Shown in pieces: positions 1 through 14,600 of a DNA stretch of 21,989 nt. This DNA is from a virus. How positions within the stretch are numbered: position 1 is the first letter of the stretch; each line of letters starts with the position of its first letter. Under the pieces are notes generated by a model. The model had not been told where the DNA came from. It saw nothing but the letters and a program-made list of their open reading frames with translations, and searched no databases. A program made the translations under genes and the position numbers. The DNA lies in IMG/VR virus record IMGVR_UViG_3300044695_003381, positions 1-21,989 of that record. One strand, given 5' to 3'.

Positions 1-154
1 CATTCGTTTCTAACATTTGACGTTCTAAACGACCACCTTTAACACGTAGTTCATCGAGTAGTTGGTCTTGCTTTTTCATTTCAGCACCAACCGCTTGAAG
101 GTCTTTTGTGTTAGTATCCCAACTAATTTTGGCTACAAGGTCTAAGATTTCCAT
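1..154 (-). CDS. Tape measure protein, N-terminal 51 residues (cut by window edge)
   Basis: An open frame starts with ATG at 154 and runs off the left edge without a stop. It begins MEILDLVAKISWDTNTKDLQ and continues with a charged helical stretch rich in K, Q, E and L. This resembles the start of phage tape measure proteins, which set tail length and help DNA ejection: a short beta-strand segment with an 'S-W/Y-D-T' motif, then a long coiled coil. The start lies 1 nt after the stop of the lipoprotein gene upstream. The tail-chaperone frameshift gene just before it supports the call, because that pair normally precedes the tape measure gene. Only the N-terminus is visible, so size and domains are unknown. 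Confidence 0.65.
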   Translation of the reverse strand, partial: MEILDLVAKISWDTNTKDLQAVGAEMKKQDQLLDELRVKGGRLERQMLETN

Positions 155-155: not shown

Positions 156-395
156 TTAATAGCAGTTTATAACTAAGTCTCCTGAAGGGTCGAAAGTCTT
201 TAATGAATCCTCTAGTGTTTGAGCAGAATAAGGGTAGTTGTTGTATTGATGGGTTTGGACTGCCACTGTATCACCTGTTGCATCAATAGCATAGACTGTA
301 CATGTAAAGTTATTGCCACCGTTCAAAGTAGCTTGATTACATGAAAATAACCCTGCCAAAGCAAGTAATCCGAGTATAAATAGTATTCCTTTCAT
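156..395 (-). CDS. Small predicted lipoprotein (79 aa)
   Basis: The N-terminus is a lipoprotein signal: one lysine, a hydrophobic core (ILFILGLLALAG) and a lipobox-like LFSC with Cys19 as the modified residue. The roughly 60-residue mature part is polar, with many N, T and Y and no family I recognise. The gene sits between the tail chaperone extension, whose stop is 10 nt upstream, and the tape measure gene 1 nt downstream. A TAACTTTG hexamer-type -7 box lies just before the ATG, so the gene may be transcribed separately. Phage lipoproteins can block superinfection, and some act on the tape measure (for example Ltp of TP-J34). That role is only a hypothesis from location. Confidence 0.7.
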   Translation of the reverse strand: MKGILFILGLLALAGLFSCNQATLNGGNNFTCTVYAIDATGDTVAVQTHQYNNYPYSAQTLEDSLKTFDPSGDLVINCY

Positions 396-399: not shown

Positions 400-407
400 C
401 AAAGTTA
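400..407 (-). promoter_or_regulatory. Possible -7 box (TAACTTTG) before the lipoprotein gene
   Basis: On the minus strand TAACTTTG matches the Bacteroidota TAnnTTTG -7 element and ends 4 nt before the ATG at 395. It overlaps the stop codon of the gene upstream. No TTTG is present at the -33 position, and such 8-mers turn up by chance in AT-rich DNA, so support is weak. Confidence 0.3.
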
Positions 408-722
408 ACGTAATTTAGATTTATTTTGATTAGTTTTTTTTGCGTCCTCTATTTTACGAGCGTGGATGTTATTAGCATAGATAAATTGATACCAACTTTC
501 TAAACTCCATGTACTTAACTCTTTGATTTTCAAAGGGTCACGTTCTGCAATGGCAAACAAAAGATAATTATATTCTTCAATGTGCTTTGTTACTAGCTTT
601 TCTGCGTCAACTTCGGTAATTGTCCTATTCTTTCTTCGACTGCCTGCCATACGGCTAACAAATCTTTCGCTGATATATTTTGTGAGGCGTTCATGCTGTT
701 GAATGCCTCCAACGTAAAAAAA
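405..722 (-). CDS. Tail assembly chaperone -1 frameshift extension (T part of a G/GT-like pair)
   Basis: This is the -1 reading frame reached from the slippery heptamer at 716-722. It is open from that point to the stop at 405 (103 codons). An in-frame TGA lies directly before the heptamer, so the frame opens exactly at the slip site. Slippage would fuse residues 1-134 of the chaperone to 103 new residues, giving 237 aa. An internal ATG at 650 could start an 81-residue protein (MAGSRRKNRT...), the alternative reading. The extension is basic at its start and end (GSRRKNR; KKTNQNKSK). It lies just upstream of the tape measure region, as expected for lambda GT-like proteins that bind the tape measure. 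No sequence family was recognised. Confidence 0.65.
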   Translation of the reverse strand, partial: FFYVGGIQQHERLTKYISERFVSRMAGSRRKNRTITEVDAEKLVTKHIEEYNYLLFAIAERDPLKIKELSTWSLESWYQFIYANNIHARKIEDAKKTNQNKSKLR

Positions 723-1117
723 TCACGTTCCTCCTTCCAAATAGCTTTCTTTTTGCTTTGCCAATCTAAATCATATTCTATCGGTTCGCCTTCCAACATG
801 AAGTAAACGCACGCTAGTTCTTCATACATTGTGCGTTGTGCTATCATGCCCAAACGGCCTTTTAAGTTTTGACCAACTGCGACCATATCTTCTTTGAGTG
901 CCTTTAGGTCTTTAGCTTCCATTGCTCGGTCTATTAAGAGTTGGGCGATACCTTCCATAAATCCCTGTGAAACTCCAGAACGGATAAAGATTTCCTGAAT
1001 TTCGGCCACCATGTAACGAGTACGGAGTATTTGGTCAGCTTGTCTAATGTCGTAGAATTTGTGCTTACCTATGACTTTAATAGGTTGTTGGGTTTTTGAT
1101 GGGTGTTGAGGTTGCAT
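593..1117 (-). CDS. Putative tail assembly chaperone (G-like, 174 aa)
   Basis: The 174-residue protein is mostly helical and charged, with no signal peptide or membrane segment. It begins MQPQHPSKTQQPIKVIGKHK; the start ATG at 1117 is 2 nt after the preceding stop. I do not recognise its family from sequence. The chaperone call rests on position, two genes after the large terminase and just before the tape measure region, and on the in-frame T_TTT_TTT site at codons Asp132-Phe133-Phe134. That site would divert some ribosomes into a long open -1 frame. Lambda G/GT and relatives use this arrangement to coat the tape measure during tail assembly. The unshifted product ends at 593. Confidence 0.6.
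   Translation of the reverse strand: MQPQHPSKTQQPIKVIGKHKFYDIRQADQILRTRYMVAEIQEIFIRSGVSQGFMEGIAQLLIDRAMEAKDLKALKEDMVAVGQNLKGRLGMIAQRTMYEELACVYFMLEGEPIEYDLDWQSKKKAIWKEERDFFTLEAFNSMNASQNISAKDLLAVWQAVEERIGQLPKLTQKS
716..722 (-). promoter_or_regulatory. Programmed -1 ribosomal frameshift site T_TTT_TTT
   Basis: The minus strand reads GA[T TTT TTT] ACG in the zero frame of the chaperone gene, a perfect X_XXY_YYZ heptamer made of seven T. Both tRNAs would re-pair fully after slipping. In the -1 frame a TGA stop sits immediately upstream and no stop follows until 405. No downstream pseudoknot was worked out. Confidence 0.65.
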
Positions 1118-1286: not shown

Positions 1287-2621
1287 TTATAGTTTTCGTT
1301 TAGCAAAATTATTAAAGTAAGTAGCCAATAAATACACAAAGCAGTCAACTAAGTGCATACCAAATTCAGTATTACCACTTGTTTTGTATAGCTTATCGCT
1401 ACCATCCATAGTTTGCGCAATTTGCATATCGTGTATTAATTCTTTGCAATTTACACCACAAATGTTAATTCTAGGATGATTTTGTAAAATATTATTTACA
1501 AAGATTCTTAATTCAGTATGAGCAGTTGCCTTGGTATAGTTTAGCAATGGCTTTGACATTTGGCTTAATCCTAAGTTCAATTCAGTTCTTATGATGTTGT
1601 GCATGGTTGTGTTGATAGAATCATAACCTGCGTTTCTAGCACCGCCAGCAGGATCTGAAGTAACTAAAAACACAGCACCATGATAGTCAGATTTAATTCT
1701 AGTTAGTAATTCTTTTAGTGGGCAATTATTGACTTTGTAAGACTTGATTACATTCAAAAAACCACCTTCGACAAATTGAGAAACCACACATGTAGCAGGG
1801 TCTATATTAAAGTCAAACGATAAATATAAAGGTAACTGCCTATTATAGATTAACGGTACTTTAGAAACGTGTTTATCTTGGTCGAATGCGTAAAAATAAG
1901 GGTTTTTGTTTTCCTCAATACCCCAAAATCCATGCACGTTAACATTGAGTAAGTTTTGCCTATTGCCATAGTTTAGTTCCAATGTACGCAAATAGGCTTC
2001 CTGGTCGATGTATTCATTGTGTAAGTAGGTAGAATGATTTATGTGTATATCACCTTCAAATCGTTCGTGCGCTTGGTATGAATCTGAATCGCTAAAGAAA
2101 AATGACTTTAACCAATGTTTTTCGCTGACTGGATTAAACGATACAATAAGTTGCAATGTTTTAGCCTTTGGAGTTCTAAGGACCGAGTTAATCATTGTAA
2201 CTTGGTCTTCTTTACACTTATCAACCTCATCTATCCAAATATGTGTTGCGTCTGAAATACCCTTAGTTTTTTCGGCATCGTCTAAGCCAAACGGCAAAAG
2301 TTGTTTGCCTGTAATCTTATTTCGGAATATCATTGAACTATTATAGGCTTCTGAATATTCAAATGAATCTTTGTATTTTGAGTTCTTGATATAATTTACA
2401 ATATCACGAAATGTAGTATCTCTTAACGTGGTCTTCTCATGCCTACAATAAACGATATTAATATGTTCTTCTAAGAATGTAAGTGCCAATAATTTAAGGA
2501 TAACATGGTTTGTTTTCCCACTACCACGACCACCAAATAAAACTAAGTACCTATGATTTGATTCAAGTATAGGTATAAAATGTTTCGAATATTGGTTGCG
2601 TTCAATTCTAACTAACTTCAT
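1287..2621 (-). CDS. terL: Terminase large subunit (packaging ATPase/nuclease)
   Basis: The 444-residue protein has both terminase domains. The N-terminal ATPase shows Walker A FGGRGSGKT (residues 29-37), Walker B THIWIDEVDK (about 126-135) and a motif III-like IVSFNPVS (159-166). The C-terminal RNase H-like nuclease has candidate acidic residues Asp270 (LSFDFN), Asp323 (TSDPAG) and Asp425 (MHLVDCFVY). It powers DNA packaging into the prohead and cuts the concatemer. Length and motifs fit the Terminase_3/PBSX-type family. Its ATG overlaps the stop of the small subunit gene by one base (TAATG), so the two are translationally coupled. Confidence 0.93.
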   Translation of the reverse strand: MKLVRIERNQYSKHFIPILESNHRYLVLFGGRGSGKTNHVILKLLALTFLEEHINIVYCRHEKTTLRDTTFRDIVNYIKNSKYKDSFEYSEAYNSSMIFRNKITGKQLLPFGLDDAEKTKGISDATHIWIDEVDKCKEDQVTMINSVLRTPKAKTLQLIVSFNPVSEKHWLKSFFFSDSDSYQAHERFEGDIHINHSTYLHNEYIDQEAYLRTLELNYGNRQNLLNVNVHGFWGIEENKNPYFYAFDQDKHVSKVPLIYNRQLPLYLSFDFNIDPATCVVSQFVEGGFLNVIKSYKVNNCPLKELLTRIKSDYHGAVFLVTSDPAGGARNAGYDSINTTMHNIIRTELNLGLSQMSKPLLNYTKATAHTELRIFVNNILQNHPRINICGVNCKELIHDMQIAQTMDGSDKLYKTSGNTEFGMHLVDCFVYLLATYFNNFAKRKL

Positions 2622-2875
2622 TATTTTTCAATGAATAAAGTATCGCCTCCAGTGTTATCGGTTACAGATACTTCTTGCTTTTCGATAGGCTTACCAAAGG
2701 CGTGTTCATAGACAAACTTTAGCAAACTTGGTTCGTTTGTTTCAATTAAGTAATTTAACGCCCCTTCCTTGCTTCCAAATTTATTTACAAGGGTTTGCAT
2801 AGCTATTTGCCTTGTATTCAATTCTTCCGCTACTGATTTGCGTCCTGCGCCTATTCTTGCACCACCTTTAGCCAT
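2621..2875 (-). CDS. terS: Terminase small subunit-like DNA-binding protein (84 aa)
   Basis: The protein begins MAKGGARIGAGRKSVAEELN, the GGARxGAGRK opening common in small proteins placed directly before large terminase genes in Bacteroidota phages. The rest is helical, as expected for recognition of the packaging site, and the end is acidic (GGDTLFIEK). It is shorter than classical TerS proteins (about 140-180 aa), so it may be a minimal form. Gene order and the one-base overlap with terL carry most of the call. A strong promoter lies about 60 nt upstream. Confidence 0.75.
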   Translation of the reverse strand: MAKGGARIGAGRKSVAEELNTRQIAMQTLVNKFGSKEGALNYLIETNEPSLLKFVYEHAFGKPIEKQEVSVTDNTGGDTLFIEK

Positions 2876-2910
2876 AGTTTGAATTTACTTGATTATTCAA
2901 TGCAAACTTG

Positions 2911-3051
2911 TCACATTGTCGCACTTAGTATGCACAAAATTACGCTAAAGTCTAAGAATATGCAAATTAATTTTGCAGCGTTGATTTCTGACTGTTTGTC
3001 TTGGTCTGATTCGGCCTTTAGATTTCGGCCTATTGTTGTGTAGAATATCAT
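2911..3051 (-). CDS. Possible 46-aa membrane microprotein
   Basis: ATG at 3051, stop TGA at 2913-2911. The product starts MIFYTTIGRNLKAESDQDKQ and ends with a hydrophobic stretch (about residues 28-46) that could be a C-terminal membrane anchor. It occupies an otherwise empty 200-bp gap. Against it, the terminase promoter lies inside its last third, so the stretch may simply be intergenic. Confidence 0.35.
   Translation of the reverse strand: MIFYTTIGRNLKAESDQDKQSEINAAKLICIFLDFSVILCILSATM
2935..2966 (-). promoter_or_regulatory. Promoter for the terminase/tail operon
   Basis: The minus strand has TTTG (2966-2963), a 20-nt spacer and TAATTTTG (2942-2935), an exact fit to the Bacteroidota TTTG-N19/20-TAnnTTTG promoter. 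Transcription would begin near 2930 and give a leader of about 55 nt before the small terminase gene. This makes it the likely start of a packaging and morphogenesis transcript. Confidence 0.6.
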
Positions 3052-3077
3052 GGTTAAAGCATTAGTTGGTGAAAAAA

Positions 3078-3269
3078 TTAGTTCATGTTTTTAATTGCCC
3101 ACTTAGCAGCAGCTCCGTAATTCTTAAAATTATTCTTAGTCATTACAAAATCTTTTTCGATGCCTATGCCAGTGTTAACGATTTGGCATATTGTAGCTTT
3201 ATACCCTTTTGCTATTGTGTAAACTATTGTTGCTTCTTTTTTACCGCTTGTTGATGTTATCGTGTTCAT
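3078..3269 (-). CDS. Small protein (63 aa), unknown function
   Basis: The product starts MNTITSTSGKKEATIVYTIA and has an alternating hydrophobic pattern suggesting beta strands, followed by a helix at the end (FKNYGAAAKWAIKNMN). There are no cysteines in metal-binding spacing, no signal peptide and no membrane helix. A TACATTTG -7 box overlapped by a short palindrome lies 25-40 nt upstream, suggesting a separately regulated gene. I do not recognise a family. Confidence 0.6.
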   Translation of the reverse strand: MNTITSTSGKKEATIVYTIAKGYKATICQIVNTGIGIEKDFVMTKNNFKNYGAAAKWAIKNMN

Positions 3270-3293
3270 TTTCTTTAGTTTTTATTTCTGATA

Positions 3294-3309
3294 CAAATGT
3301 ACATTGTAC
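3294..3309 (-). promoter_or_regulatory. -7 box with overlapping palindrome
   Basis: TACATTTG on the minus strand (plus 3294-3301) overlaps GTACATTGTAC (3299-3309), a palindrome apart from its centre base. A protein bound to the palindrome would cover the promoter, so this could be an operator. No TTTG is seen at -33. Confidence 0.35.
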
Positions 3310-3368
3310 TTTTTAATTAATTATATAAAATATTGTGAATGTGCATAATTTTGCGGTGAATGACCATT

Positions 3369-3382
3369 GTTGTTATAACAAC
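3369..3382. repeat. Perfect 14-bp palindrome GTTGTTATAACAAC
   Basis: The palindrome lies in the gap after the HTH gene ending at 3420 and before the gene starting at 3269. No T-tract follows on either strand, so it is not an intrinsic terminator. A dimeric DNA-binding protein site is plausible, and two small DNA-binding proteins are encoded next to it. Confidence 0.4.
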
Positions 3383-3419
3383 TATTGTATAGTAGTAGTT
3401 ATTATTGATATTTATTTAT

Positions 3420-3806
3420 TTACTCCAAAACACTAGATTCTGCGGTTATCCAACATTTGTATCGATTAACATTAAAGAATCCATTACATTCATCTTCTTG
3501 GATAGGTCTACCACGTTCGATATAGGGTGTTAATCCTAATCGTTTGATAAAGTGCTTGCATCGGTGTATAGTCCACCCGAAATGATGTGCTATCTTGTAT
3601 GGAGACATGATTTCGGCATGTTGTTTAAGGTATTGTGTTTGCTCATCGGTTAAGTCACCATAATAACGTGATCGGTCGGCTTTAAGGTTGTTAGCTTGTA
3701 GGAACTTGGATAATGTGTTTTGGCTAATACGTATTTCTTTGCGTATTTGCGGACCCGTTAAGGCTTGGAAGTTGTCGAGTATAAATCGTTCTTGTTGTGG
3801 TGTCAT
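3420..3806 (-). CDS. Tandem helix-turn-helix DNA-binding protein (128 aa)
   Basis: Two similar HTH-like segments are visible: about residues 18-41 (GPQIRKEIRISQNTLSKFLQ, then ANNL) and 68-91 (SPYKIAHHFGWTIHRCKHFI, then KRLG). Each has the pattern of a short helix, a turn and a recognition helix, and each opens after a 'T..Q..' lead (MTPQQERF; LTDEQTQY). This suggests an internal duplication. The gene starts 1 nt after the stop of a small GRPK-containing gene, so the two form a likely regulatory pair. It probably controls phage transcription, but targets cannot be read from sequence. Confidence 0.65.
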   Translation of the reverse strand: MTPQQERFILDNFQALTGPQIRKEIRISQNTLSKFLQANNLKADRSRYYGDLTDEQTQYLKQHAEIMSPYKIAHHFGWTIHRCKHFIKRLGLTPYIERGRPIQEDECNGFFNVNRYKCWITAESSVLE

Positions 3807-3807
3807 G

Positions 3808-3963
3808 TTAGTTTGTTTTATCTTGTTTTACTTCACATTGTTTTCTAGCTATCTTGGCTAGCTGATAGAACACCTTAACCTTGCTTGATGGTATTCTCAT
3901 ACACTTAGTTAGTATAGCTTCTGAATGTTGTATTTTCGGTCTGCCTGCTTTTTTGTTATCCAT
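3808..3963 (-). CDS. Small basic protein with AT-hook-like GRPK (51 aa)
   Basis: ATG at 3963, stop at 3810-3808. The product starts MDNKKAGRPKIQHSEAILTK and is strongly basic (many K and R). A GRPK motif near the N-terminus recalls AT-hook or ribbon-helix-helix DNA-binding proteins, and MRIPSSKVKVFYQLAKIA could be the RHH helix pair. A TATATTTG -7 box ends 4 nt before the ATG, so its mRNA would be nearly leaderless. The tandem-HTH gene follows after 1 nt. Confidence 0.55.
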   Translation of the reverse strand: MDNKKAGRPKIQHSEAILTKCMRIPSSKVKVFYQLAKIARKQCEVKQDKTN

Positions 3964-3967
3964 ACCA

Positions 3968-3975
3968 CAAATATA
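3968..3975 (-). promoter_or_regulatory. TATATTTG -7 box, nearly leaderless start
   Basis: The minus strand reads TATATTTGTGGTATGG, with the ATG of the 51-aa gene 4 nt after the box. The context TTTGTGG(T/C)ATGG recurs at the HTH gene at 14486. No TTTG is seen at the -33 position. Confidence 0.45.
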
Positions 3976-4020
3976 CACCTATTTTTTATATTTTATATTT
4001 TTATTGAAAGTTTTTTTGGA

Positions 4021-4185
4021 TTAATTATAATAAACCACCAACATTTCTTTCCGTATCGCATTAGCAAGCATCAAGTCCTCTATTAGTTGCTGATTCGTAC
4101 TGCGTGACATCATAGCGTTCGCATTGGCTATGTTGACTTCAAGGATTAGCCATTCAGGTAGGCATTGGTAGGATATGGTTGTCAT
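4021..4185 (-). CDS. Small protein (54 aa), unknown function
   Basis: ATG at 4185, stop TAA at 4023-4021. The product starts MTTISYQCLPEWLILEVNIA and is mostly helical and hydrophobic-to-polar mixed. Its ATG overlaps the stop of the nuclease gene upstream as ATGA, typical of translational coupling, which is the main support for it being real. No motif identifies a function. Confidence 0.55.
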   Translation of the reverse strand: MTTISYQCLPEWLILEVNIANANAMMSRSTNQQLIEDLMLANAIRKEMLVVYYN

Positions 4186-4691
4186 AGCGGTGTAGAGTTA
4201 AATTCATCATACCACGCCATCAAATCTCCTAAGCTACGGATTATGATATACACCCCGCCTGCTTGGTTAATTGACTGCTCGTATAGTTTTTGGTCGTGTT
4301 TCTGATAGTCACGTCCGTACTTTACCTCTATCTTGACACTTATACCAAACTTGGACCATGTAGGCTTAATAGTTGCTGAAATATCAGCACTACCCTTTGT
4401 GCCAGTACCTTTTTGCCACTCAACACTTCCGACTATTCTAGTACGACCTAATACGTCTTTAACTTCTCGCTTATTGTCTTTCATTCTACCCATTGTGTTT
4501 ATCCTTTCGGCTTGGTGTCCGTTGAACCTTAAGAAGTCAATAGCACATCGAGTTAATCCATTCGCCGAATTATCGTTTTTATCATACCATCCATCCTCCC
4601 TACGTTCCTTGTCGGTCATGGTTACATTGTACTTCCGTTCGTGATGTGATAGCTTCAGTTCTATCATTCGTTGTTTTTCTTGCTTGGTCAT
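4182..4691 (-). CDS. VRR-NUC-like PD-(D/E)XK nuclease (169 aa)
   Basis: The C-terminal half carries a restriction-type nuclease core: TKGSADISATI with Asp103, then SVKIEVKYG with Glu122-x-Lys124, and QSINQAGGVYIII with a conserved-looking Gln. This order (GSxD, ExK, Q...GG) is that of VRR-NUC and related Holliday-junction/flap nucleases found in phage replication modules. The middle part (residues 36-66) contains a conserved-looking WYDKND..A.GLT..I..F...GHQAERIN stretch. It may process branched DNA during replication or packaging. The start could be ATG at 4691 or an internal ATG at 4619 (MTDKERREDG). Confidence 0.75.
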   Translation of the reverse strand: MTKQEKQRMIELKLSHHERKYNVTMTDKERREDGWYDKNDNSANGLTRCAIDFLRFNGHQAERINTMGRMKDNKREVKDVLGRTRIVGSVEWQKGTGTKGSADISATIKPTWSKFGISVKIEVKYGRDYQKHDQKLYEQSINQAGGVYIIIRSLGDLMAWYDEFNSTPL

Positions 4692-4782
4692 TTTTAATGT
4701 AATTTAAGATGAAAGTTTTTCTCTCCGATTCATTGCAATATTTCATTGCTTTGAGGATAGTTTGTGCTGTTTTGGGTGTCAT
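4600..4782 (-). CDS. Possible small protein (60 aa) overlapping the nuclease start
   Basis: The product starts MTPKTAQTILKAMKYCNESE and is charged and helical for its first 35 residues. The last 30 residues lie inside the N-terminal codons of the nuclease gene in another frame (92-nt overlap). If the nuclease really starts at its internal ATG at 4619, the overlap shrinks to 20 nt and both genes become easy to accept. It is the first gene after the putative origin. Confidence 0.45.
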   Translation of the reverse strand: MTPKTAQTILKAMKYCNESERKTFILNYIKNDQARKTTNDRTEAITSRTEVQCNHDRQGT

Positions 4783-4813
4783 AATGGTGTGAAATTAGTG
4801 ATTATTTTTAAGA

Positions 4814-5113
4814 GTAAACCAAAAGTAAACTAAATTTACTTGGTTTACAGGCATCAAAGCCAATGTAGGCTTGACTTTGATAGAAAAGTAAACCAGGTTT
4901 ACTAGTTTACTGAGTAGAAATATAATTTTAGAAAAAAATAAAATGAGTAAACTAAAGTAAACTATATATATATATACTATAATATATACTATAATATATA
5001 TACTAATATATAATAATGATATATAATACAATACTTTACACATTATGATTTTTTATATACATTGGTTTACTTTTGGTTTACTTTTGGTTTACTTTAGTTT
5101 ACTTTTAGTTTAC
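4814..5113. other. Putative replication origin: GTAAAC iterons flanking an AT-rich tract
   Basis: Thirteen copies of GTAAAC(C/T)A (one GTAAACCT) lie in this 300-bp gene-free stretch. Left block: plus orientation at 4814, 4825, 4888, 4947, 4957; minus orientation at 4841, 4895, 4903. Right block: five minus-orientation copies at 5063, 5074, 5085, 5095, 5106, spaced 11, 11, 10 and 11 bp, one helical turn apart. Between the blocks, about 4965-5062, is a nearly pure A/T run with TATATA repeats, a likely easily melted region. The block sits directly after the primase/ATPase gene. Iterons phased by one turn beside an AT-rich element are the hallmark of initiator-bound origins. A frame starting at 5043 is low-complexity and considered non-coding. 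Confidence 0.7.
5063..5113 (-). repeat. Five directly repeated, helically phased iterons
   Basis: Consecutive units on the minus strand read GTAAACTA, GTAAACTA, GTAAACCA, GTAAACCA, GTAAACCA, each preceded by AAA or AAAA. Start-to-start distances are 10-11 bp, so all face one side of the helix. This is the most regular part of the putative origin. Confidence 0.75.
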
Positions 5114-5147
5114 TTTTTTCGGTCATTTTTGCTAATTTAGTATTTAA
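5094..5147 (-). pseudogene. In-frame echo of the primase C-terminal HTH after its stop
   Basis: Directly after the primase stop (TAA 5150-5148), the same frame continues LNTKLAKMTEKSKLKVN before another TAA. This mirrors the protein's own end NTEIAKMVGKSKQFVGKV, and the DNA matches too (AAATTGCAAAAATGG versus AAATTAGCAAAAATGA). It looks like the remnant of a longer C-terminus with two HTH copies, now cut by a stop. Its last codons run into the iterons. Confidence 0.4.
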
Positions 5148-7427
5148 TTAACAAACTGATTTTAAAACCTTTCCTACAAATTGTTTGCTTTTACCGACCA
5201 TTTTTGCAATTTCGGTATTCTTAAATCCTTTTTCAGAAAGTGATATTATCTTCTCAGTAGATGTCTTCCCTTTCATCTTATCAAACACCTCATTTTTTTC
5301 ATTTGTCAATGCATTTTCAACGAATACTCCCTTAGCTGTGTTCGCAAAATAATGTATTAGCTTTTCAGCCTTTTCTACGTGTTCTTTCTCGATTACTAAC
5401 TCAGTACCATAGTCGAACATTTCAATGGCGCAAATAAGCAAAGCAAAGCGCTTAACGTATGTTCTTAACTTTGCATAGTACTTTTGTAGTGCAGGTAGTG
5501 TATCGTCATTATTTTGAATCATTGTATCTTTCATTTCTATTTCCAAAAAGTAATCCAATGCCCATTCACTTGTTTGAACTATTTTAATATCCTTTGCGTC
5601 AATGTATGATAGTGAAGCGTCGATTTGTTTTACCTTTTCATCCCACCATTCCATGTAGCGTTTATCCATTGAGTATTTAGTCAAAGGTTTTGCTAGTTTT
5701 TCGCTTTTGCTAAATAAAAACCTATCTAATAGTCCATTATCGGTATGATTACTTGCTAATCTAGTAAGGACTTCATCCTGTATAGTGCCTATAATATTTA
5801 TAAATATGTTGTTTAGCCTAATAGTATCTTGAGTTTTACGATTAATAGTAAATGATCCGCAGTTAAACGATTCGAGTATAAATTCCTCGTCTGAGCCTTT
5901 TTTATTATACTTATTGAAATCATTAATTACGCCTTGCAATTCATCCTTGTAAAGTAAAACGCCTTTTTTATTAAAGTCGATTACCTGGCATAGTGCCTCA
6001 ATAGTGAAATCGGTTACTATTTTTTGTTTAAACAATGGTTTTTTATTCTTTTCTTTATCATCTTTCGACAACTTATTAAAGTTTGCTATTTCTATTGAGT
6101 AGTTTTTAAAGTTTTCATCGTCTATTTTGTTTAGTGGTGTTAATACTTTTTTGACTGGATGCGATTTACTTGCACCCCTTGATCCTACAATAGCAAACCA
6201 AAATATAGGACTATCTAAATAGTCCTCTTTTACTTGTATTTTAAGGCTATTACCTATGCTTGTTGCGATGGTTGATAACATTGTACACGCTAGGTAATCT
6301 TTTGAGAATGATAGCGATTTACTAGCCTCTATGATGTAAGTTTGGTAATTCTTAGGCAATACATCAATAGGAAACTCAATATCTTCATGGTCCGTAATAT
6401 CTAGGACCTCAATATTTGACGTTTTAGGCTTAGTATTGAATACCATCGGTTTTTGTGATTCTATTTCAATGTTATATTCCTTTGCCATACGTTTAATGAC
6501 TTCCATTGTTTCAACCCAGTTGCACTTACATTTGTAGTAAACTATTTTAGTTGCTGTCAATATCCAGTTATGATCATGTTCGTTAATTCGTGAATGAAAC
6601 GATGGAAAACCTGCAATAGATGAAGTAAAAAGTAATAGCTTGTTACTATTAAAATAAACCTTTGCTGAGTAATCAGCCTTTGAGCCTTTGCGAAGGTATT
6701 TTAAATGTTTGTCTTTGCTACGTTGTGATTTCTTAACCTCATACAAGTCAATGGAATTTAGCAAATATTCAAACGCTTTCTCATTGCAAAACCTATCAAA
6801 GTGCAAAGCTATTGATTCATATTCAATAGGGTAATCAATAACGATGTGATTTTCATAGTTGTAGGTGTCAACGTGCTTGTTAAATGATAATGAAATAGCG
6901 TTAACCATATCAAACTCGTCTTGAGTAAGTTCGTAAATTTCATCAAATGAACCATGTATAACCTCATATCCTGGTGTTGGCTCACAGAATGACAATAAAC
7001 CGCCTGTATAGTTTGCAATAACTTCATTTCCTGATTCTGATTTAGCTAGTGTTTGCTTCTGTATTATCCCTCTAAACTTGCAATACACATGGTAACCTCC
7101 ATTTCGTGTTTTTTCAATACATACTTTCGAAGTGAAATCGTCTAATACCGACGTTACAGCCTTTATCCATTTGTCGTAAATAGTTTTATCATCTGTATTT
7201 TTCAAGTCAAAATCAACCATGTAAAATGGTGGAAATAGTTTCAAGGCTATACCATTACATTCATTTATTTCATTTAGCCAAAGGTTAATAACTTCATCGG
7301 GATTACTACCAGCATGAATCATACCATGTTCTACATATTTAATTGCGTTTTTATTTTTTTCATCCCAAACAATAGGTATTGGTGAAAGTCCTGCACGTTG
7401 CAGGTCCTGGAATTTATTTAGATTCAT
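5148..7427 (-). CDS. Primase-polymerase / DUF3987-type ATPase fusion (759 aa)
   Basis: The N-terminal third looks like an archaeo-eukaryotic-type primase-polymerase: MVDFDLKN with Asp72-x-Asp74, then TRNGGYHVYCKF with His113, and GGLLSFCEPTPGYEVIHGSF (142-161). The middle to C-terminal part fits DUF3987/YfjI-like ATPases: Walker A-like GSRGASKS (415-422), Walker B-like VLLYKDELQG (490-499), a LESFNCGSFTINRKT segment and LLDRFLF (566-572) as a likely arginine-finger region. The last 30 residues hold an HTH (FKNTEIAKMVGKSKQFVGKV). It likely primes and unwinds at the adjacent iteron origin. The start is 1 nt after the upstream stop. Confidence 0.82.
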   Translation of the reverse strand: MNLNKFQDLQRAGLSPIPIVWDEKNKNAIKYVEHGMIHAGSNPDEVINLWLNEINECNGIALKLFPPFYMVDFDLKNTDDKTIYDKWIKAVTSVLDDFTSKVCIEKTRNGGYHVYCKFRGIIQKQTLAKSESGNEVIANYTGGLLSFCEPTPGYEVIHGSFDEIYELTQDEFDMVNAISLSFNKHVDTYNYENHIVIDYPIEYESIALHFDRFCNEKAFEYLLNSIDLYEVKKSQRSKDKHLKYLRKGSKADYSAKVYFNSNKLLLFTSSIAGFPSFHSRINEHDHNWILTATKIVYYKCKCNWVETMEVIKRMAKEYNIEIESQKPMVFNTKPKTSNIEVLDITDHEDIEFPIDVLPKNYQTYIIEASKSLSFSKDYLACTMLSTIATSIGNSLKIQVKEDYLDSPIFWFAIVGSRGASKSHPVKKVLTPLNKIDDENFKNYSIEIANFNKLSKDDKEKNKKPLFKQKIVTDFTIEALCQVIDFNKKGVLLYKDELQGVINDFNKYNKKGSDEEFILESFNCGSFTINRKTQDTIRLNNIFINIIGTIQDEVLTRLASNHTDNGLLDRFLFSKSEKLAKPLTKYSMDKRYMEWWDEKVKQIDASLSYIDAKDIKIVQTSEWALDYFLEIEMKDTMIQNNDDTLPALQKYYAKLRTYVKRFALLICAIEMFDYGTELVIEKEHVEKAEKLIHYFANTAKGVFVENALTNEKNEVFDKMKGKTSTEKIISLSEKGFKNTEIAKMVGKSKQFVGKVLKSVC

Positions 7428-7428
7428 A

Positions 7429-8361
7429 TTATTTGAATTTTGGTTTTAAATCATTGATAGTAATCGTTCTAGTAGTATGGTCGGTGTATGCGTTTTTATC
7501 ATATACAATATGATATGATTCGACTATTCTATAATCGTTTCTATCTTTGCATACTTGAGTAACAATATCTTGATATAAGTTCAATTTCAATAAATCAACA
7601 ATATTATTATTTTTCTTTATGTCAAAAACTACTACTTTGCTTTCGTTTGAACAAATTAAATCGGGTATTCTAACAGAATATTTACCATCAATTTCCAAAG
7701 AAAAATACACTTGATCTGATACATTACTAAATAACTCATTGCAAATAGACTTCACTATAAATTCTTCCTTTTTAGATTGTTTTGATGCATTAACGCCTGT
7801 TTGAAACGTATTTGATTTCATATCAATAGCGTAACATTCTTGTCCATAAACTTCAAATAGAAACTCATATAGCACAGAAGCCATAATAAAAGTAATACCA
7901 TAATGATTCCTAAAATCGTTTAAATATGTTTTAGACCAAATGTAATCATTGCAAAATTGATGAAATGATTGTAACTCTGTTACATCCTTATAATTATAGC
8001 TTGTATGTCTATAATCTTCATTTCTATAATCACTACAACCAACAAAATTAAAATTTTTAATGTACTTTAACTGAGCACCGCAAATGCAATAATGTGTACG
8101 TACATTGTTTTTAACATCGTTGATAATGTTATTGTTATCTATTGATAATGATATACTACTATCATATTGTTCTTTGTATTTATTATACTTTTTTTCAAGA
8201 TGGATAAGGTAGTAATCCTCATGTTTACGAATTAAATCGTTAATGTTTTTTGCACAATAGTCAGCAGATAATTGTTTCTTTTCACTACCTGCACCATAAA
8301 CCTTTTTTTTAAAGTTGGCTACTTCTTCAGCAGTCATAACTTTTATTTTTGATAGAACCAT
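7429..8361 (-). CDS. Zinc-finger plus PD-(D/E)XK nuclease (310 aa)
   Basis: The C-terminal part has a nuclease core: an early Glu (KKEEFIVKSICNEL), then VRIPDLICS with Asp234 and VVVFDIKKN with Asp247-x-Lys249. The middle has CICGAQL...FNFVGCSDYR (Cys92, Cys94, Cys109), closely resembling the zinc fingers of type IA topoisomerase tails (CxxCG...FxGCSxYP) but with one Cys missing or shifted. The start is taken as ATG at 8361, because the upstream TTG lies within a terminator-like hairpin. The structured RNA upstream ends only 4 nt before this ATG, so expression may depend on read-through. The primase gene follows after 1 nt. A role in replication or DNA-end processing is inferred. Confidence 0.68.
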   Translation of the reverse strand: MVLSKIKVMTAEEVANFKKKVYGAGSEKKQLSADYCAKNINDLIRKHEDYYLIHLEKKYNKYKEQYDSSISLSIDNNNIINDVKNNVRTHYCICGAQLKYIKNFNFVGCSDYRNEDYRHTSYNYKDVTELQSFHQFCNDYIWSKTYLNDFRNHYGITFIMASVLYEFLFEVYGQECYAIDMKSNTFQTGVNASKQSKKEEFIVKSICNELFSNVSDQVYFSLEIDGKYSVRIPDLICSNESKVVVFDIKKNNNIVDLLKLNLYQDIVTQVCKDRNDYRIVESYHIVYDKNAYTDHTTRTITINDLKPKFK

Positions 8362-8365
8362 AAAT

Positions 8366-8480
8366 AAAAAACCCTTCAAGAAGTCACCAGTGAGAGCCTA
8401 CTTAGTAGGTGGCAACCCCTTGAAGGGCGTGTAAATTGTTATTGATTAGACGCCTCTCACAGCATCAATTAATTAAAGAA
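8366..8480 (-). ncRNA. Structured RNA or attenuator leader with interleaved helices
   Basis: A promoter ends at 8487, so a transcript of about 115 nt would end in TTTTTT at 8371-8366. In minus-strand order the pairing segments are GTGAGAG (8460-8454), GGCGT/ACGCC (8454-8450 with 8430-8426), CCCTTCAAG (8427-8419), CCTAC-TTA-type hairpin (8409-8397), CTCTCAC (8396-8390) and CTTGAAGGG (8380-8372). GTGAGAG pairs with CTCTCAC (7 bp) and CCCTTCAAG with CTTGAAGGG (9 bp); these two helices interleave, giving an H-type pseudoknot or two exclusive states. The second helix plus the T-tract acts as an intrinsic terminator 4 nt before the nuclease ATG. It may be a stand-alone small RNA or a riboregulator. 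It matches no riboswitch class I know. Confidence 0.6.
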
Positions 8481-8486
8481 CTACCG

Positions 8487-8517
8487 CAAATATACTACAA
8501 CCTAATCAAAGTTCCAA
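8487..8517 (-). promoter_or_regulatory. Promoter of the structured RNA
   Basis: The minus strand reads TTGG (8517-8514), a 19-nt spacer and TATATTTG (8494-8487), a close fit to the Bacteroidota promoter. The -7 box begins directly after the TAG stop of the zinc-ribbon gene. Transcription should begin near 8480. Confidence 0.6.
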
Positions 8518-8668
8518 GTATTTTTTTATCTAAATACTTATCCCTCTCATACTTTTTCTTACACTCGCTACAACGGCTATCTAATCCATCAAGCATTCCT
8601 TTCATCTTGTAAAACTCTCGTGACGCTTTAGGTTCAAGACATTGTTTGCATATTTTCAAAGTATTCAT
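8495..8668 (-). CDS. Small zinc-ribbon protein (57 aa)
   Basis: ATG at 8668, stop TAG at 8497-8495. The product starts MNTLKICKQCLEPKASREFY and has two CxxC pairs, CKQC (7-10) and CSEC (33-36), separated by a F-Y-x-x-x-G-x-x-D-G-L segment. This is the treble-clef metal-binding arrangement seen at the N-terminus of HNH/endonuclease VII-like proteins and in stand-alone small phage proteins. No HNH catalytic part is present, so it is more likely a nucleic-acid-binding protein than an enzyme. The -33 region of the downstream RNA promoter lies inside its last codons. Confidence 0.7.
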   Translation of the reverse strand: MNTLKICKQCLEPKASREFYKMKGMLDGLDSRCSECKKKYERDKYLDKKILGTLIRL

Positions 8669-8688
8669 CAAGTTGTTTTAAAAAGGGA

Positions 8689-8997
8689 TTAAAATGGCAA
8701 TTGCGAATCGTCTGCACTTGGAGTACTGGGTGTTTGCGCCTGTTCCTGCTTATCAGCTACCTTAATAACCCCATCAGTCCAAAATACCTTACCATTGGCA
8801 AAATAGTACTTTGGTTGTTTTGCTTCACGTTGTTCCTTGCTTTGTTCGGCAAAGAATGAAACGTTTTGCCCAAATTGATTAGACTGCTCGGATATTGAAG
8901 CCGAGAATTTAAAGCCTTTTTCATTTTTTGATTTCGTAACTCTTACGATTTCTTCTAGTTTTTCTAGGGTAATGTAACCCGATAGTAATGCACTCAT
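8689..8997 (-). CDS. Single-stranded DNA-binding protein-like (102 aa)
   Basis: The protein begins MSALLSGYITLEKLEEIVRV and has a beta-rich middle: FKFSASISEQSNQFGQNVSF and KYYFANGKVFWTDG. It ends in a disordered Q/T/S/D-rich tail and DDSQLPF. The acidic tip ending in P-F is the hallmark of bacterial SSB C-termini, which bind partner proteins. The body is short for an OB-fold SSB, so it may be a diverged or minimal form. Its place among annealing, exonuclease, DnaA-like and primase genes supports the call. Confidence 0.65.
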   Translation of the reverse strand: MSALLSGYITLEKLEEIVRVTKSKNEKGFKFSASISEQSNQFGQNVSFFAEQSKEQREAKQPKYYFANGKVFWTDGVIKVADKQEQAQTPSTPSADDSQLPF

Positions 8998-9019
8998 GTT
9001 GTTTGTGTGTTTTTATTTG

Positions 9020-9050
9020 TTTGTAAATGTAATTAATTTAGTTATCTTTG
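9020..9050 (+). promoter_or_regulatory. Plus-strand promoter for a small RNA
   Basis: TTTG (9020-9023), a 19-nt spacer and TATCTTTG (9043-9050) match the Bacteroidota consensus exactly on the plus strand, against the direction of the surrounding genes. Confidence 0.62.
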
Positions 9051-9054
9051 CCTC

Positions 9055-9101
9055 GTTCATCAGTTATTTAGTTTTGAGGCATCCGCAAGGGTGCTTTTTT
9101 T
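9055..9101 (+). ncRNA. Compact plus-strand small RNA (about 45-50 nt)
   Basis: The exact promoter at 9020-9050 is followed after about 30 nt by an intrinsic terminator, leaving no room for a gene. A GCCTC at 9050-9054 could pair with GAGGC at 9076-9080 if transcription starts early enough. The RNA lies between two minus-strand genes; its T-tract overlaps the stop codon of the gene at 9100-9474. It could act as an antisense RNA on the leader of the SSB-like gene or on other targets. Confidence 0.5.
9079..9101 (+). terminator. Intrinsic terminator (plus strand)
   Basis: GCATCC (9079-9084), a GCAA loop, GGGTGC (9089-9094) and seven T (9095-9101). The six-pair stem (one G-U) with a tetraloop is a strong intrinsic terminator. 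Confidence 0.75.
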
Positions 9102-9474
9102 ATTTACCGAGTGGGTAGTTGTCCAAATCAGGTTTAAACTTAGCATCTATCAACTTGCGTAGTTCGGTCTTATCGCCTTCGTATTCACGTTCGACATAGT
9201 GCGATACTTCAAGTAGTTGTTGGTAGTCTTGTGCGGATTCGATGCGTTGGGTGAGTTCGGTGTGTTGAGTATATAAATTGTGGTGGAAATGGAATAAAGT
9301 ATAATCAGAATCTGAGACACTATCCCATACATAATCTCCCTCATCTGTACTTTCCCAACAGAACGCATCTTCTAGTATGTCTGTCGTTTTACTAAATCCT
9401 TTAGTACATTCTCTCTGACACTCCAACGCCCTTTGTTTGATAGATTCAGGTAATTGTGATATTAGTTTGCTCAT
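9100..9474 (-). CDS. Acidic protein (124 aa), unknown function
   Basis: The product begins MSKLISQLPESIKQRALECQ and is rich in D and E in the middle (STDEGDYVWDSVSDSDYTLF), then helical (HHNLYTQHTELTQRIESAQD). The central acidic, aromatic part resembles DNA-mimic or protein-binding surfaces, but no known family is recognised. It follows the small gene at 9480 after 5 nt and lies within the replication module. Its stop codon overlaps the T-tract of the plus-strand terminator. Confidence 0.65.
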   Translation of the reverse strand: MSKLISQLPESIKQRALECQRECTKGFSKTTDILEDAFCWESTDEGDYVWDSVSDSDYTLFHFHHNLYTQHTELTQRIESAQDYQQLLEVSHYVEREYEGDKTELRKLIDAKFKPDLDNYPLGK

Positions 9475-9479
9475 TTTGT

Positions 9480-9725
9480 TTATTTTATTTTAGTTAAATT
9501 AATTAATTGTTCATCGGTTAATTGGGTGATGTAAAAGCTATCTTCTTTGCGCTTTTTAACGTACAATTTAGGCTTATCTAGTTCGCCATAGCATACTTGG
9601 ATACTAGCCTTAGAATTAAGGTCAAATGATAGGTAAAAGCCGCCATAACCAGTTTGGTTAAATTCAACAGCATCATCCGTATCGTGCCGAGTGAATCCTA
9701 GTTTTATGTAATCGGAGTATTTCAT
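9480..9725 (-). CDS. Small beta-rich protein (81 aa), unknown function
   Basis: The product begins MKYSDYIKLGFTRHDTDDAV and alternates hydrophobic and polar residues (GGFYLSFDLNSKASIQVCYG), suggesting a single small beta-sheet domain. It starts on the last base of the DnaA-like gene's stop, a one-base overlap. Proteins of this size and look are common in Bacteroidota phage replication operons, without known function. Confidence 0.65.
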   Translation of the reverse strand: MKYSDYIKLGFTRHDTDDAVEFNQTGYGGFYLSFDLNSKASIQVCYGELDKPKLYVKKRKEDSFYITQLTDEQLINLTKIK

Positions 9726-10102
9726 TATATTTTTGGTTTATATTTTAGTGATGTAAAATTTTGCCTTTCAATAGTTAGTAATGAGTAATTACGTGCAGTT
9801 GTAGTTTCTGTTTGTATGTGGTTCTTAAACTTAATTATAGCATTTCTAACCGTTGTATGGTCTTGCGCTATTATAGACAACATTGCGCCTATTTTCTCCA
9901 TGCTATACATTTTGACCGTATAGAAATAAAATGATGCCATGTGACGTGCCATTACTATTTCTTGTTTTCTTGTCTTAATAAATATATCATCAAGTTTAAC
10001 ATCGTATGTTGTAGCACATTCAGCAATGATAGCTAAATCATCATTATTCAAACCTTTTATGTGGTTTCTAATCGCTTGTTCTTGTTCTGTGTGTGTCATC
10101 AT
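9725..10102 (-). CDS. Stand-alone DnaA domain IV-like protein (125 aa)
   Basis: The core matches the DNA-binding domain of DnaA: KTRKQEIVMARHMASFYFYT (about 44-63), then SMEKIGAMLSIIAQDHTTVR (about 67-86), with the DHTTV signature and the basic R-Q-E-x-V-x-A-R-H helix. There is no AAA+ ATPase part, so it cannot act as a full initiator. It may bind origin DNA, recruit or compete with host DnaA, or act as a regulator. Its place upstream of the primase and iteron origin fits a replication role. There are two ATG codons at the start. Confidence 0.82.
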   Translation of the reverse strand: MMTHTEQEQAIRNHIKGLNNDDLAIIAECATTYDVKLDDIFIKTRKQEIVMARHMASFYFYTVKMYSMEKIGAMLSIIAQDHTTVRNAIIKFKNHIQTETTTARNYSLLTIERQNFTSLKYKPKI

Positions 10103-10107
10103 AGCTT

Positions 10108-10275
10108 TTAATTTGTTTTTAATTCAAGTTCATCTTTGCGTAATCGTACCAAGTCGTACGCCTCAGAACGTTGTTCTATAAACGGAAAAATGTAATCTAT
10201 CCACTTGATGCACGTGTCAAGAGTTTCATGAGTTTCACAACTATTGATTACTGATTTTATTTTTTCGGGTATCAT
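10108..10275 (-). CDS. Small protein (55 aa), unknown function
   Basis: ATG at 10275, stop TAA at 10110-10108. The product starts MIPEKIKSVINSCETHETLD and ends basic then acidic (VRLRKDELELKTN); it appears all-helical. It fills the gap between the 69-aa gene, 2 nt upstream, and the DnaA-like gene, 5 nt downstream. No family recognised. Confidence 0.6.
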   Translation of the reverse strand: MIPEKIKSVINSCETHETLDTCIKWIDYIFPFIEQRSEAYDLVRLRKDELELKTN

Positions 10276-10277
10276 TG

Positions 10278-10487
10278 TTAGTTAAGTTTTAGTTGAGTTA
10301 ATCCGCAAGTTAATTTTATAGCTTCTAAAATATCATTATAAGATTCATCAACATAGTATTCAGAACCATCGCCTAAATCTACAACGCATTTATTTTTAGT
10401 AGATATATAAACCCCTTTTATTTTACCTATTTGAACCAAACATTTTGTGCCTGTTCCTATTGTTAATTCAATAAATTGTAATTGCAT
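10278..10487 (-). CDS. Small protein (69 aa), unknown function
   Basis: The product begins MQLQFIELTIGTGTKCLVQI and has strand-like segments (GVYISTKNKCVVDLGDGSEYYVDES) followed by a helix (YNDILEAIKLT). This resembles small beta-barrel-plus-helix proteins that are common fillers in phage early operons. It begins 1 nt after the exonuclease stop. Confidence 0.6.
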   Translation of the reverse strand: MQLQFIELTIGTGTKCLVQIGKIKGVYISTKNKCVVDLGDGSEYYVDESYNDILEAIKLTCGLTQLKLN

Positions 10488-10488
10488 C

Positions 10489-11187
10489 TTATTTAAGTTT
10501 TAATGTGTTATAATAATTTCTAGCCTTCTCTATTTGACCTTTCAACTTCTCAATAACCGCCTCATCATAAGTAAACTCGAATATTTTAACTCTATCCGCT
10601 TTCGGTATTTCATTAATCAAGTCGTTGTTGCGTTGTATCTGTTGACACTCTGCAATGTAGTCAAGATTATCGTAGTTTCCACCATAAGCATAAGATAGCT
10701 TCTGCATTTGGCTTGATATGATGTCTTGAGGCGTAGGTACTAAGCAATAGATTAAACGATAACTATGCACCCCTGTAAGCCACATATAACATTGCGCTTG
10801 CACCTTGTACATCGTAGTTGGTTCGGCATTGAAGTACGTTTTTAAGTTCCATGACGTTTTTATATCCTCTACGCAGTCGGTTAATACGATGTCGGGAGTA
10901 CCGACTATGTAATCGTTTTCTAACTTAGTAGCAAATCTTGAACGAAACGCACCGCCTAGAACTTCCTGCACCAACTCCATGCTATCTTGCTCACACGTAT
11001 TACCTTTATCCATGTAGTCATTTTTAATGCTTTCACGAAACCCATAAGTATTGTATAACCATAAATCTTCTACAAATGTCTTAGCTGTGTCGGATAGCTT
11101 GCCCGCTTCTTTGTCGGTCTTTAGTTTTGGTTCAGTTAGCAATGCACCTGCACCGCTACAACGTATAAGTATTTTATTTGTTCCCAT
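10489..11187 (-). CDS. YqaJ/Cas4-like recombination exonuclease (232 aa)
   Basis: A PD-(D/E)XK exonuclease core is visible: Glu66 (GNTCEQDSM), YIVGTPDIVL with Asp99, VEDIKTSW with Asp108-x-Lys110, and KVQAQCYMW (128-136), matching the Q-x-Q-x-Y motif of YqaJ and lambda exonuclease relatives. Such enzymes resect double-stranded DNA ends to expose a strand for an annealing protein. The Rad52-like gene lies directly upstream, overlapping by 14 nt. This gives a two-component homologous recombination system for the phage. Confidence 0.82.
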   Translation of the reverse strand: MGTNKILIRCSGAGALLTEPKLKTDKEAGKLSDTAKTFVEDLWLYNTYGFRESIKNDYMDKGNTCEQDSMELVQEVLGGAFRSRFATKLENDYIVGTPDIVLTDCVEDIKTSWNLKTYFNAEPTTMYKVQAQCYMWLTGVHSYRLIYCLVPTPQDIISSQMQKLSYAYGGNYDNLDYIAECQQIQRNNDLINEIPKADRVKIFEFTYDEAVIEKLKGQIEKARNYYNTLKLK

Positions 11188-11815
11188 TGATTAATTCTTT
11201 TTTTGATTCATAAATAGTTACCAAGTTATATTTACCTACCAAATCATAAACTTGTAATAGTTCATCTTCGGTTTTGCATTGTAGTATATGCTTTGTAACT
11301 CTTTCTTTCTCTTTGGTGTTGTGGGTTTCTTCGGCTGATTCAGTATTAACCGATATTTCTCTAAATTCATCTTTGCCATAAATATCGCTAGCAATTCCAA
11401 TATCGGCAGCGCATTTCTTTAGTGCATCGGTAGCAGCAGCCTTGTAGTCATTACCTAAGTTCAATGGGTCTTGTGTGCCACGTTTATACATGATTTCTTT
11501 GCATCCAAATTGCGTCTTAACAATAGCACGACCATTAACACGACAAGTTAATTTACCTTTTACAATTACTTGATTTGCTTGTACTGATTCACTCAATACT
11601 TCAAAATCCCAGTCCCAACCAAACATAAGATTTAATACTTTGCGGATATAACCACCGCTTACATAAGTCCAAGCGCCACCGCCTTTGGCAGGTCTAGTTC
11701 TAACAAACTTATCAGGTGTGCGTTTCATTAATAATGCTAGTTGGTTAGCATTTAGCGAATTATCTTGTACTAATGATAATTCTTTGGCTTCAATTTTTAC
11801 TAGTTCTTTGCTCAT
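11174..11815 (-). CDS. Rad52/Rad22-like single-strand annealing protein (213 aa)
   Basis: The middle of the protein fits Rad52-type annealing proteins: WTYVSGGYIRKVLNLMFGWD, WDFEVLSESV, KGKLTCRVNGRAIVKTQFG and NLGNDYKAAATDALKKCAAD. The last one is the conserved 'A-x-x-D-A-x-K-x-x-A' helix. It anneals complementary strands made by the neighbouring exonuclease. The start is taken as ATG at 11815 (MSKELVKIEAK); a longer frame from 11872 adds 19 residues of unlikely lysine/leucine-rich sequence. The C-terminal 60 residues are more variable and acidic or basic mixed. Confidence 0.8.
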   Translation of the reverse strand: MSKELVKIEAKELSLVQDNSLNANQLALLMKRTPDKFVRTRPAKGGGAWTYVSGGYIRKVLNLMFGWDWDFEVLSESVQANQVIVKGKLTCRVNGRAIVKTQFGCKEIMYKRGTQDPLNLGNDYKAAATDALKKCAADIGIASDIYGKDEFREISVNTESAEETHNTKEKERVTKHILQCKTEDELLQVYDLVGKYNLVTIYESKKELINGNK

Positions 11816-11884
11816 GTTATTTTTTAGTTTAAGTTTAAAAAGTTTGGCGTTTATTAAGGAGTATTTCGCCACCCACTCACTTTT

Positions 11885-12160
11885 TTACTTATCCAAATGA
11901 GCAAATAAACATTGTTCTTCTTCGCTATCCAATTCCTTGTCTAAGAATACTTTGTCGAATACCATAGTATGATGCTCAATACTAGCCTCGTCAAATGCGA
12001 AGTCGCAAAAGGTTTCAAATCTATGCTTGTCGATGTGTTCATCCATGTTACTCATTCGGCTACATGATGCGAAGTAAAATAGCAATTCCCATGATATTGC
12101 GTTCGTGTATTCATTCTCGTTTAGGAATACCGATAGTTTGATAAATTGTTCTTTGTTCAT
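11885..12160 (-). CDS. Acidic helical protein (91 aa), unknown function
   Basis: The start is taken as ATG at 12160 (MNKEQFIKLSVFLNENEYTN), because the longer frame from 12199 would overlap the promoter at 12185-12216. The protein is all-helical with acidic segments (DEHIDKHRFETF; DKELDSEEEQ) and several Phe and His. It is the first gene of the recombination module. No known family is recognised; a role in early takeover or regulation is possible. Confidence 0.6.
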   Translation of the reverse strand: MNKEQFIKLSVFLNENEYTNAISWELLFYFASCSRMSNMDEHIDKHRFETFCDFAFDEASIEHHTMVFDKVFLDKELDSEEEQCLFAHLDK

Positions 12161-12184
12161 TGTTATTTGTTTTAATTGTTTAAG

Positions 12185-12216
12185 CAAATGTATAAACAAG
12201 TTTTGATATAAACTAA
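12185..12216 (-). promoter_or_regulatory. Candidate promoter of the recombination/replication operon
   Basis: On the minus strand TTAG (12216-12213), a 20-nt spacer and TACATTTG (12192-12185). The -7 box is exact and the -33 box differs by one base. Transcription would begin near 12180, about 20 nt before the ATG at 12160. Confidence 0.5.
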
Positions 12217-12217
12217 T

Positions 12218-12388
12218 TTATTTTAAAGTTTTTTTTATTTGATTATAAGTTATTTGTTCACCTTTGATATCCCATACTAAAATAGAGCCTTTTACCACCG
12301 CTTTAATTAACTTAAATTCATCTTTAGGCATTAAGTAATAAGGCTTCTTAAATTCATATTCTTTATTTTTAACTCGTATTGTAATCAT
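12218..12388 (-). CDS. Small basic protein (56 aa), unknown function
   Basis: ATG at 12388, stop TAA at 12220-12218. The product begins MITIRVKNKEYEFKKPYYLM and is rich in lysine, with strand-helix-strand pattern and a final basic helix (NQIKKTLK). It lies between the methyltransferase cassette region and the early operon promoter. No family recognised. Confidence 0.55.
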   Translation of the reverse strand: MITIRVKNKEYEFKKPYYLMPKDEFKLIKAVVKGSILVWDIKGEQITYNQIKKTLK

Positions 12389-12418
12389 TTGAATATCAAT
12401 AGCTTATAAGTATTAGTT

Positions 12419-12453
12419 GGTTCTAGCGAGTAGTTACCAGCAATGCCAGAACC
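12419..12453. repeat. Hairpin after the second methyltransferase gene
   Basis: GGTTCT (12419-12424) and AGAACC (12448-12453) form a six-pair stem, extended by GC/GC across bulges. The loop contains GTTACCAGC, whose reverse complement GCTGGTAAC also occurs in the repeat inside the methyltransferase N-terminus (13101). No T-tract follows on either strand, so this is not a standard terminator; it may be a third boundary element of the cassette region. Confidence 0.45.
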
Positions 12454-12460
12454 GACACCG

Positions 12461-13174: not shown

Positions 13175-13235
13175 CTTTCTAATTAAATTTAGTGGTTAAA
13201 AGCCCCGCCTTCGCAAAGCACCATACGTTAGCCGC
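13101..13235. repeat. Inverted repeat bounding methyltransferase 2 (attC-like)
   Basis: The outer arm at 13198-13235 (minus strand GCTAACGTATGGTGCTTTGC then GAAGGCGGGGCTTT) lies between the stop of methyltransferase 1 and the start of methyltransferase 2. The inner arm at 13101-13134 (plus strand GCTGGTAACACGTGCTTTGC then AAAAGCGGGGGTTT) lies in codons about 14-25 of methyltransferase 2. The arms pair imperfectly around the start codon. The outline (GCTAAC ... GCTTTGC ... GCGGGG-TTT) is shared with the repeat at 14158-14290. The YAAC/GTTR ends recall integron attC sites, but no integrase gene is visible. Confidence 0.6.
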
Positions 13236-13239
13236 AATA

Positions 13240-14238: not shown

Positions 14239-14290
14239 ATTAAATTTTCGTTTTTAAATCCCGCCCTTCGTATAGCTGCAAAACGTTAGC
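14158..14290. repeat. Inverted repeat bounding methyltransferase 1 (attC-like)
   Basis: The outer arm at 14256-14290 (minus strand GCTAACGTTTTGCAGCTATA then CGAAGGGCGGGATTT) overlaps the end of the HTH gene and the gap before the methyltransferase. The inner arm at 14158-14198 (plus strand GCGGCTAACAGCACCTATAC then AAAAGGCGGGGTTTAGTGGTT) lies in its N-terminal codons. Both arms share GCTAAC, CTATAC and GGCGGG in order. The inner arm's TAGTGGTT also appears next to the outer arm of the other cassette (13190-13197), tying the two elements together. Confidence 0.6.
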
Positions 14291-14486: not shown

Positions 14487-14490
14487 GCCA

Positions 14491-14522: not shown

Positions 14523-14540
14523 CATTTTATTATTTAATTT

Positions 14541-14572: not shown

Positions 14573-14600
14573 AAAATTAAACTAACTATGAATAAAAGAG

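Follow-up and report, generated by a model that had tools for sequence, protein, structure and literature searches.

Frameshifting of the −1 G-T type is widely conserved in long-tailed phages (review PMC5009743, citing Xu, Hendrix and Duda 2004). The gene pair described here lies in a 21,989-base virus record from IMG/VR (hereafter the window, meaning the whole stretch of DNA that was analysed), with open reading frames called by program and the pair on the minus strand, and it resembles lambda G/GT in that two overlapping frames sit just upstream of the tape-measure gene with the second in −1, that the slippery heptamer falls near the end of the first frame, and that there is no clear conserved stimulator. 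The two systems differ in the heptamer itself, which is GGGAAAG in lambda and TTTTTTT here, and in their surroundings, as the pair here comes after the terminase gene or unrelated genes and not after a recognisable major tail protein gene, and a lipoprotein gene often sits between the pair and the tape measure; between the lambda genes and this pair there is no detectable sequence similarity. A second point of comparison is provided by the Korravirus-type actinophages (phrog_1326, Arthrobacter phage Sergei NC_054428), in which the annotated frameshifted chaperone also directly precedes the tape measure and the tape measure shares a homologous domain with that of this phage (46.6% over about 270 aa). 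Unlike these tape-measure domains, the extension domains are unmatched, with an hhalign probability of 0.3%, the same as for a reversed control; a resemblance of the extension to the actinophage chaperone extension domain that had caught the eye was rejected when an 11-sequence profile gave hhalign values at control level. In the open-access literature we found no paper on frameshifted tail chaperones in this phage group.

The gene pair and its probable slip site

The zero-frame ORF, gene A (593-1117, minus strand), encodes a 174-aa G-like product and carries the slip site toward its 3' end, where the codons read ...GAA CGT GAT TTT TTT ACG.... An earlier note on this DNA had described a run of seven T in the phase GA[T TTT TTT], and our reading agrees to the base, placing T_TTT_TTT at 722-716 on the minus strand, with the zero-frame codons GAT TTT TTT specifying D-F-F. 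The TGA that the note saw in the −1 frame immediately before the heptamer is indeed there, at 725-723. No further stop interrupts this frame between the slip site and a TAA at 407-405, which leaves 103 codons after the two phenylalanines (105 including them). Translation of this extension (405-722, minus strand) as the putative T-like domain, FF plus 103 residues, gives the fusion length that the note had stated, 132 + 105 = 237 aa. Within it, the apparent ATG of a separately called 81-aa gene B (648-650, minus strand) is a by-product of zero-frame Val-Trp/Cys codons.

In the window by itself, these features are only suggestive, because the heptamer is unremarkable here and the open −1 stretch has a 7-8% chance. 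Codon-usage shuffles of 16 window genes led us to expect 1.94 in-frame occurrences of T_TTT_TTT where one is observed, with similar counts in the relatives, and the heptamer alone, in one AT-rich sequence, is thus no better than chance. The 22 codons from the slip site to the gene B ATG remained free of stops in 7-8% of synonymous shuffles of the window.

Conservation among relatives and the status of gene B

Scans of IMG/VR yielded seven divergent lineages, represented by the window together with L025 and by contigs L020, L022, L023, L024, L039 and L042; L020 and L015 are the same record, as are L023 and L008, and L040 and L041 were grouped with L039 and L042, respectively. Gene A proteins of L020, L022, L023 and L024 are 58-69% identical to that of the window, and L039-L042, which were retrieved with a profile of the B frame (the extension) alone, provide an independent, blind test because they were found through the extension frame only. 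A search of 84,980 species genomes of bacteria and archaea turned up no relative of A or B, and GenBank phages yielded none of gene A. Across the seven lineages GAT TTT TTT occupies the homologous Asp-Phe-Phe position without exception (63/63 codon comparisons invariant), and a homologous extension is encoded by an open −1 frame after the slip site in each. The product of codon-usage probabilities for T_TTT_TTT at D-F-F in all seven is 2.3e-6, a value that assumes independent lineages and that shared ancestry makes only approximate. L024, L039 and L042 prefer TTC, with TTT making up 32-37% of Phe codons, yet keep the heptamer. Gene A codons show a synonymous identity of 0.38 ahead of the slip site and of 0.60 within the overlap (permutation p = 0.0001), and the slip codons are identical throughout (30/30). 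The −1-frame TGA also lies directly 5' of the heptamer in L022 and two codons upstream in L023, and in L020 and L024 a −1-frame stop is found 16-17 codons upstream. Relatives that keep both products and a strong second start with no slippery site, which the earlier note had proposed to look for, were the opposite of what emerged: heptamer and open −1 frame are retained together in 7/7 lineages, and two of these have no ATG for the second frame.

The discriminating piece of sequence is the stretch from the slip site to the ATG of gene B, since it would be unconstrained in the −1 frame if B started at that ATG. This stretch is stop-free in 7/7 lineages (product of null probabilities 8e-7), and the peptides that it encodes in the −1 frame (for example YVGGIQQHERLTKYISERFVSR, YYRGVQAHEHLTNYVFERYIKR and YWRSVQAHERLGQYLNERYFSR) reached a conservation score of 1266 over the seven lineages against 137 +/- 87 in 3000 synonymous shuffles that kept the zero-frame protein, none of which attained the observed value (z = 13.0, 0/3000). 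The shuffles ignore kinship, and eight control windows taken farther 5' in gene A, which carry the same relatedness, show no signal (z = -0.6 to 1.2 in a five-lineage test). Were B instead a gene of its own, starting from the ATG at 650 and overlapping A through tight packing with the T run incidental, the ATG found in 5/7 lineages and a heptamer that chance alone would place about twice among the genes of the window would be easily accommodated. The same reading has to contend with ATT in place of the ATG in L022 and L023, with −1-frame conservation of the 22 codons 5' of the ATG (z 9-13), and with synonymous constraint within the overlap that is higher before the ATG (0.67) than after it (0.53). 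Conservation of the −1 peptide ahead of the ATG refutes it as a full account, and we assign it next to no probability. Because the heptamer is kept, a −1 peptide is conserved 5' of the ATG and the ATG itself gives way to ATT, it is wrong, judged by these comparisons, to call B as a separate gene, and the proposal that the 81-residue frame belongs to a fusion gains support. Some internal initiation at B on top of slippage is possible.

Proposed slippage mechanism and surrounding elements

Gene A and the −1 frame that follows it are very probably decoded as a unit, a G/GT-like pair produced by −1 slippage at T_TTT_TTT, which on this comparative evidence is by far the best explanation of the pair. 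Under this model most ribosomes would read gene A to its own stop and release the 174-aa protein, and a minority, paired through tRNA-Phe with the two TTT codons, would slip one base back into the −1 frame to make the 237-aa fusion, with the called gene B falling within the last 105 residues of that product. If the pair works as lambda gpG/gpGT does, the role of the short protein would be to coat the tape-measure protein, the extra domain of the fusion would recruit tail-tube subunits, and the slip rate would set the product ratio needed for tail assembly. The comparative evidence covers the conserved slip site, selection on the −1 frame from that site onward, and the linkage to the tape measure; that ribosomes rather than RNA polymerase slip, and with what efficiency, is what we infer.

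The T tract measures seven bases and is flanked by A on both sides in five lineages. Nine T stand at the slip site in L022 (4399-4407) and L023 (3911-3919), the same two lineages that have no gene B ATG, and in these two slippage may be more or less efficient, or partly transcriptional. If transcriptional slippage were the source of the fusion throughout, RNA polymerase would stutter along the T run, giving a mixture of mRNAs for A and for the fusion. Tracts that support transcriptional slippage are usually about 8-9 bases or more, so that the seven A-flanked T of five lineages are shorter than usual, and the phase in which the run is kept, over a Phe-Phe pair, is exactly the one that a tandem −1 slip requires. 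The homopolymer itself, with its nine consecutive T in L022 and L023, favours polymerase stuttering, as does the reported underrepresentation of UUUUUUU in all frames, which is possibly owing to transcriptional slippage (PMC4066793). Taken with the tract length and phase, these points leave a polymerase origin a very slim chance, and ribosomal slippage remains the preferred reading. The same study describes UUN codons as shift-prone in E. coli, with most heptamers there exceeding background (PMC4066793).

Candidate stimulatory elements were also considered. A possible hairpin beginning 6 nt 3' of the heptamer (684-709, minus strand, in the window) is predicted in the window, L020 and L024, and against a null that kept the zero-frame protein and conservative −1 residues it was unusual only in L020 (p about 0.01, nominal). 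Covariation for the hairpin over all seven lineages was no better than shuffled, and the hairpin is absent in L039 and L042; a conserved stimulatory hairpin was rejected on these two grounds. A Shine-Dalgarno-like GGAGG 5' of the slip site in the window was likewise set aside, as its spacing is not fixed in the relatives.

Genomic context and the probable tail chaperone assignment

At the edge of the window, a partial ORF (1-154, minus strand) corresponds to the start of an 892-aa tape-measure protein that is present at full length in the near-identical contig L002 (5964-8642) and was identified through phrog_7025 (E 1e-30). A tape-measure gene lies 3' of the pair in the window, L020, L023, L024, L039, L040 and L042, a tally that leaves out L041 and L022, the contig of the latter ending at the lipoprotein gene. 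The gene for this small predicted lipoprotein, a neighbour that stands outside the mechanism, occupies 156-395 (minus strand) between the pair and the tape-measure gene in the window; it has the same place in L020, L023 and L039 and is absent in L024 and L042, where the pair is directly upstream of the tape-measure gene. In relatives it is located at 4239-4526 of L008, 1645-1923 (minus strand) of L015, 4741-4983 of L022 and 4342-4572 of L039. The predicted products carry an N-terminal signal with a lipobox-like LFSC, FEGC, TSAC or AVSC, and a tape-measure-linked lipoprotein of this kind could act in superinfection exclusion.

On the other side of the pair, terL lies upstream of gene A in the window family, L020, L023 and L039, and a different gene takes this position in L024, which marks the tape measure as the fixed partner of the pair. 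In the window about 170 bases (1118-1286), holding a 54-codon ORF (MHKNESDKLS...), separate terL from gene A; L002 has gene A directly after terL without these bases, and the difference presents itself as a recent insertion or deletion. Elsewhere in the window, adjacent genes at 12461-13174 and 13240-14238 (minus strand) encode proteins that appear DNA methyltransferase-like by reading of their sequence.

The phage group appears to be so far uncultured, the longest record seen being 37 kb, and its gene order seems unusual, running from terminase through chaperone, lipoprotein, tape measure and distal tail to the head genes. In L017 (G002) the order over 1605-19618 is small terminase, large terminase, chaperone pair, lipoprotein, tape measure and distal tail proteins, after which come genes resembling those for a portal, head morphogenesis and a capsid, the first and the last of these named by guesswork from size and order; here the tail module seems to precede the head module. 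Three of these proteins (552, 381 and 590 aa) had no match in 50,697 GenBank phage records.

The −1-frame ORF overlaps gene A without a conserved start of its own in the seven lineages, a trait of G/GT-type pairs, and a slippery heptamer of the form X_XXY_YYZ falls where the −1 frame turns coding, as T_TTT_TTT in 7/7. Pfam and PDB gave no match for A or the extension, the only PHROG match of the pair was a weak one to phrog_25875 (tail assembly chaperone, E 0.11-0.19), Foldseek returned no meaningful fold match for AlphaFold models of low confidence (pLDDT 46 and 68), and no major tail protein gene, after which G/GT-type pairs usually though not necessarily lie, could be recognised. As neither sequence nor fold searches tied the proteins to known chaperones, the chaperone role rests on position and architecture, by which the pair is most likely a tail assembly chaperone of the lambda G/GT type. 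The tail chaperone label given in the earlier note is well upheld by the adjoining tape-measure gene and finds no backing in sequence homology, none being detected. It is improbable that the pair, though frameshifted, is no tail chaperone and serves as another structural or packaging pair, for example as a terminase-associated protein; this would fit the undetectable homology to tail chaperones and the abutment of gene A on terL in the window family, and it fits poorly with L024, where the tape-measure gene still follows a pair that has no terL upstream, and with the tape-measure gene directly after the pair, with no lipoprotein gene, in L024 and L042. Keeping to the chaperone assignment, it is conceivable, if rather unlikely, that A and the fusion constitute a chaperone family that shares no common descent with those described, in which G/GT-like slippage arose convergently at an all-T site in a group with an unusual gene order.

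In summary, our analysis corrects a gene model, in that B is to be seen as the extension of a fusion rather than a gene, and brings to light −1-frameshifted pairs in seven lineages, a family without a match in any of those searched. The probable tail chaperone of the phage group, missed by family libraries, is thereby identified, and a clean T_TTT_TTT slip site is seen to be kept across lineages of quite different base composition. The general picture of tail chaperone frameshifting, a mechanism already well known in phages, is unchanged, and the comparisons strongly support programmed −1 slippage at T_TTT_TTT in a G/GT-like pair that is a sequence-divergent addition to a well-known class.
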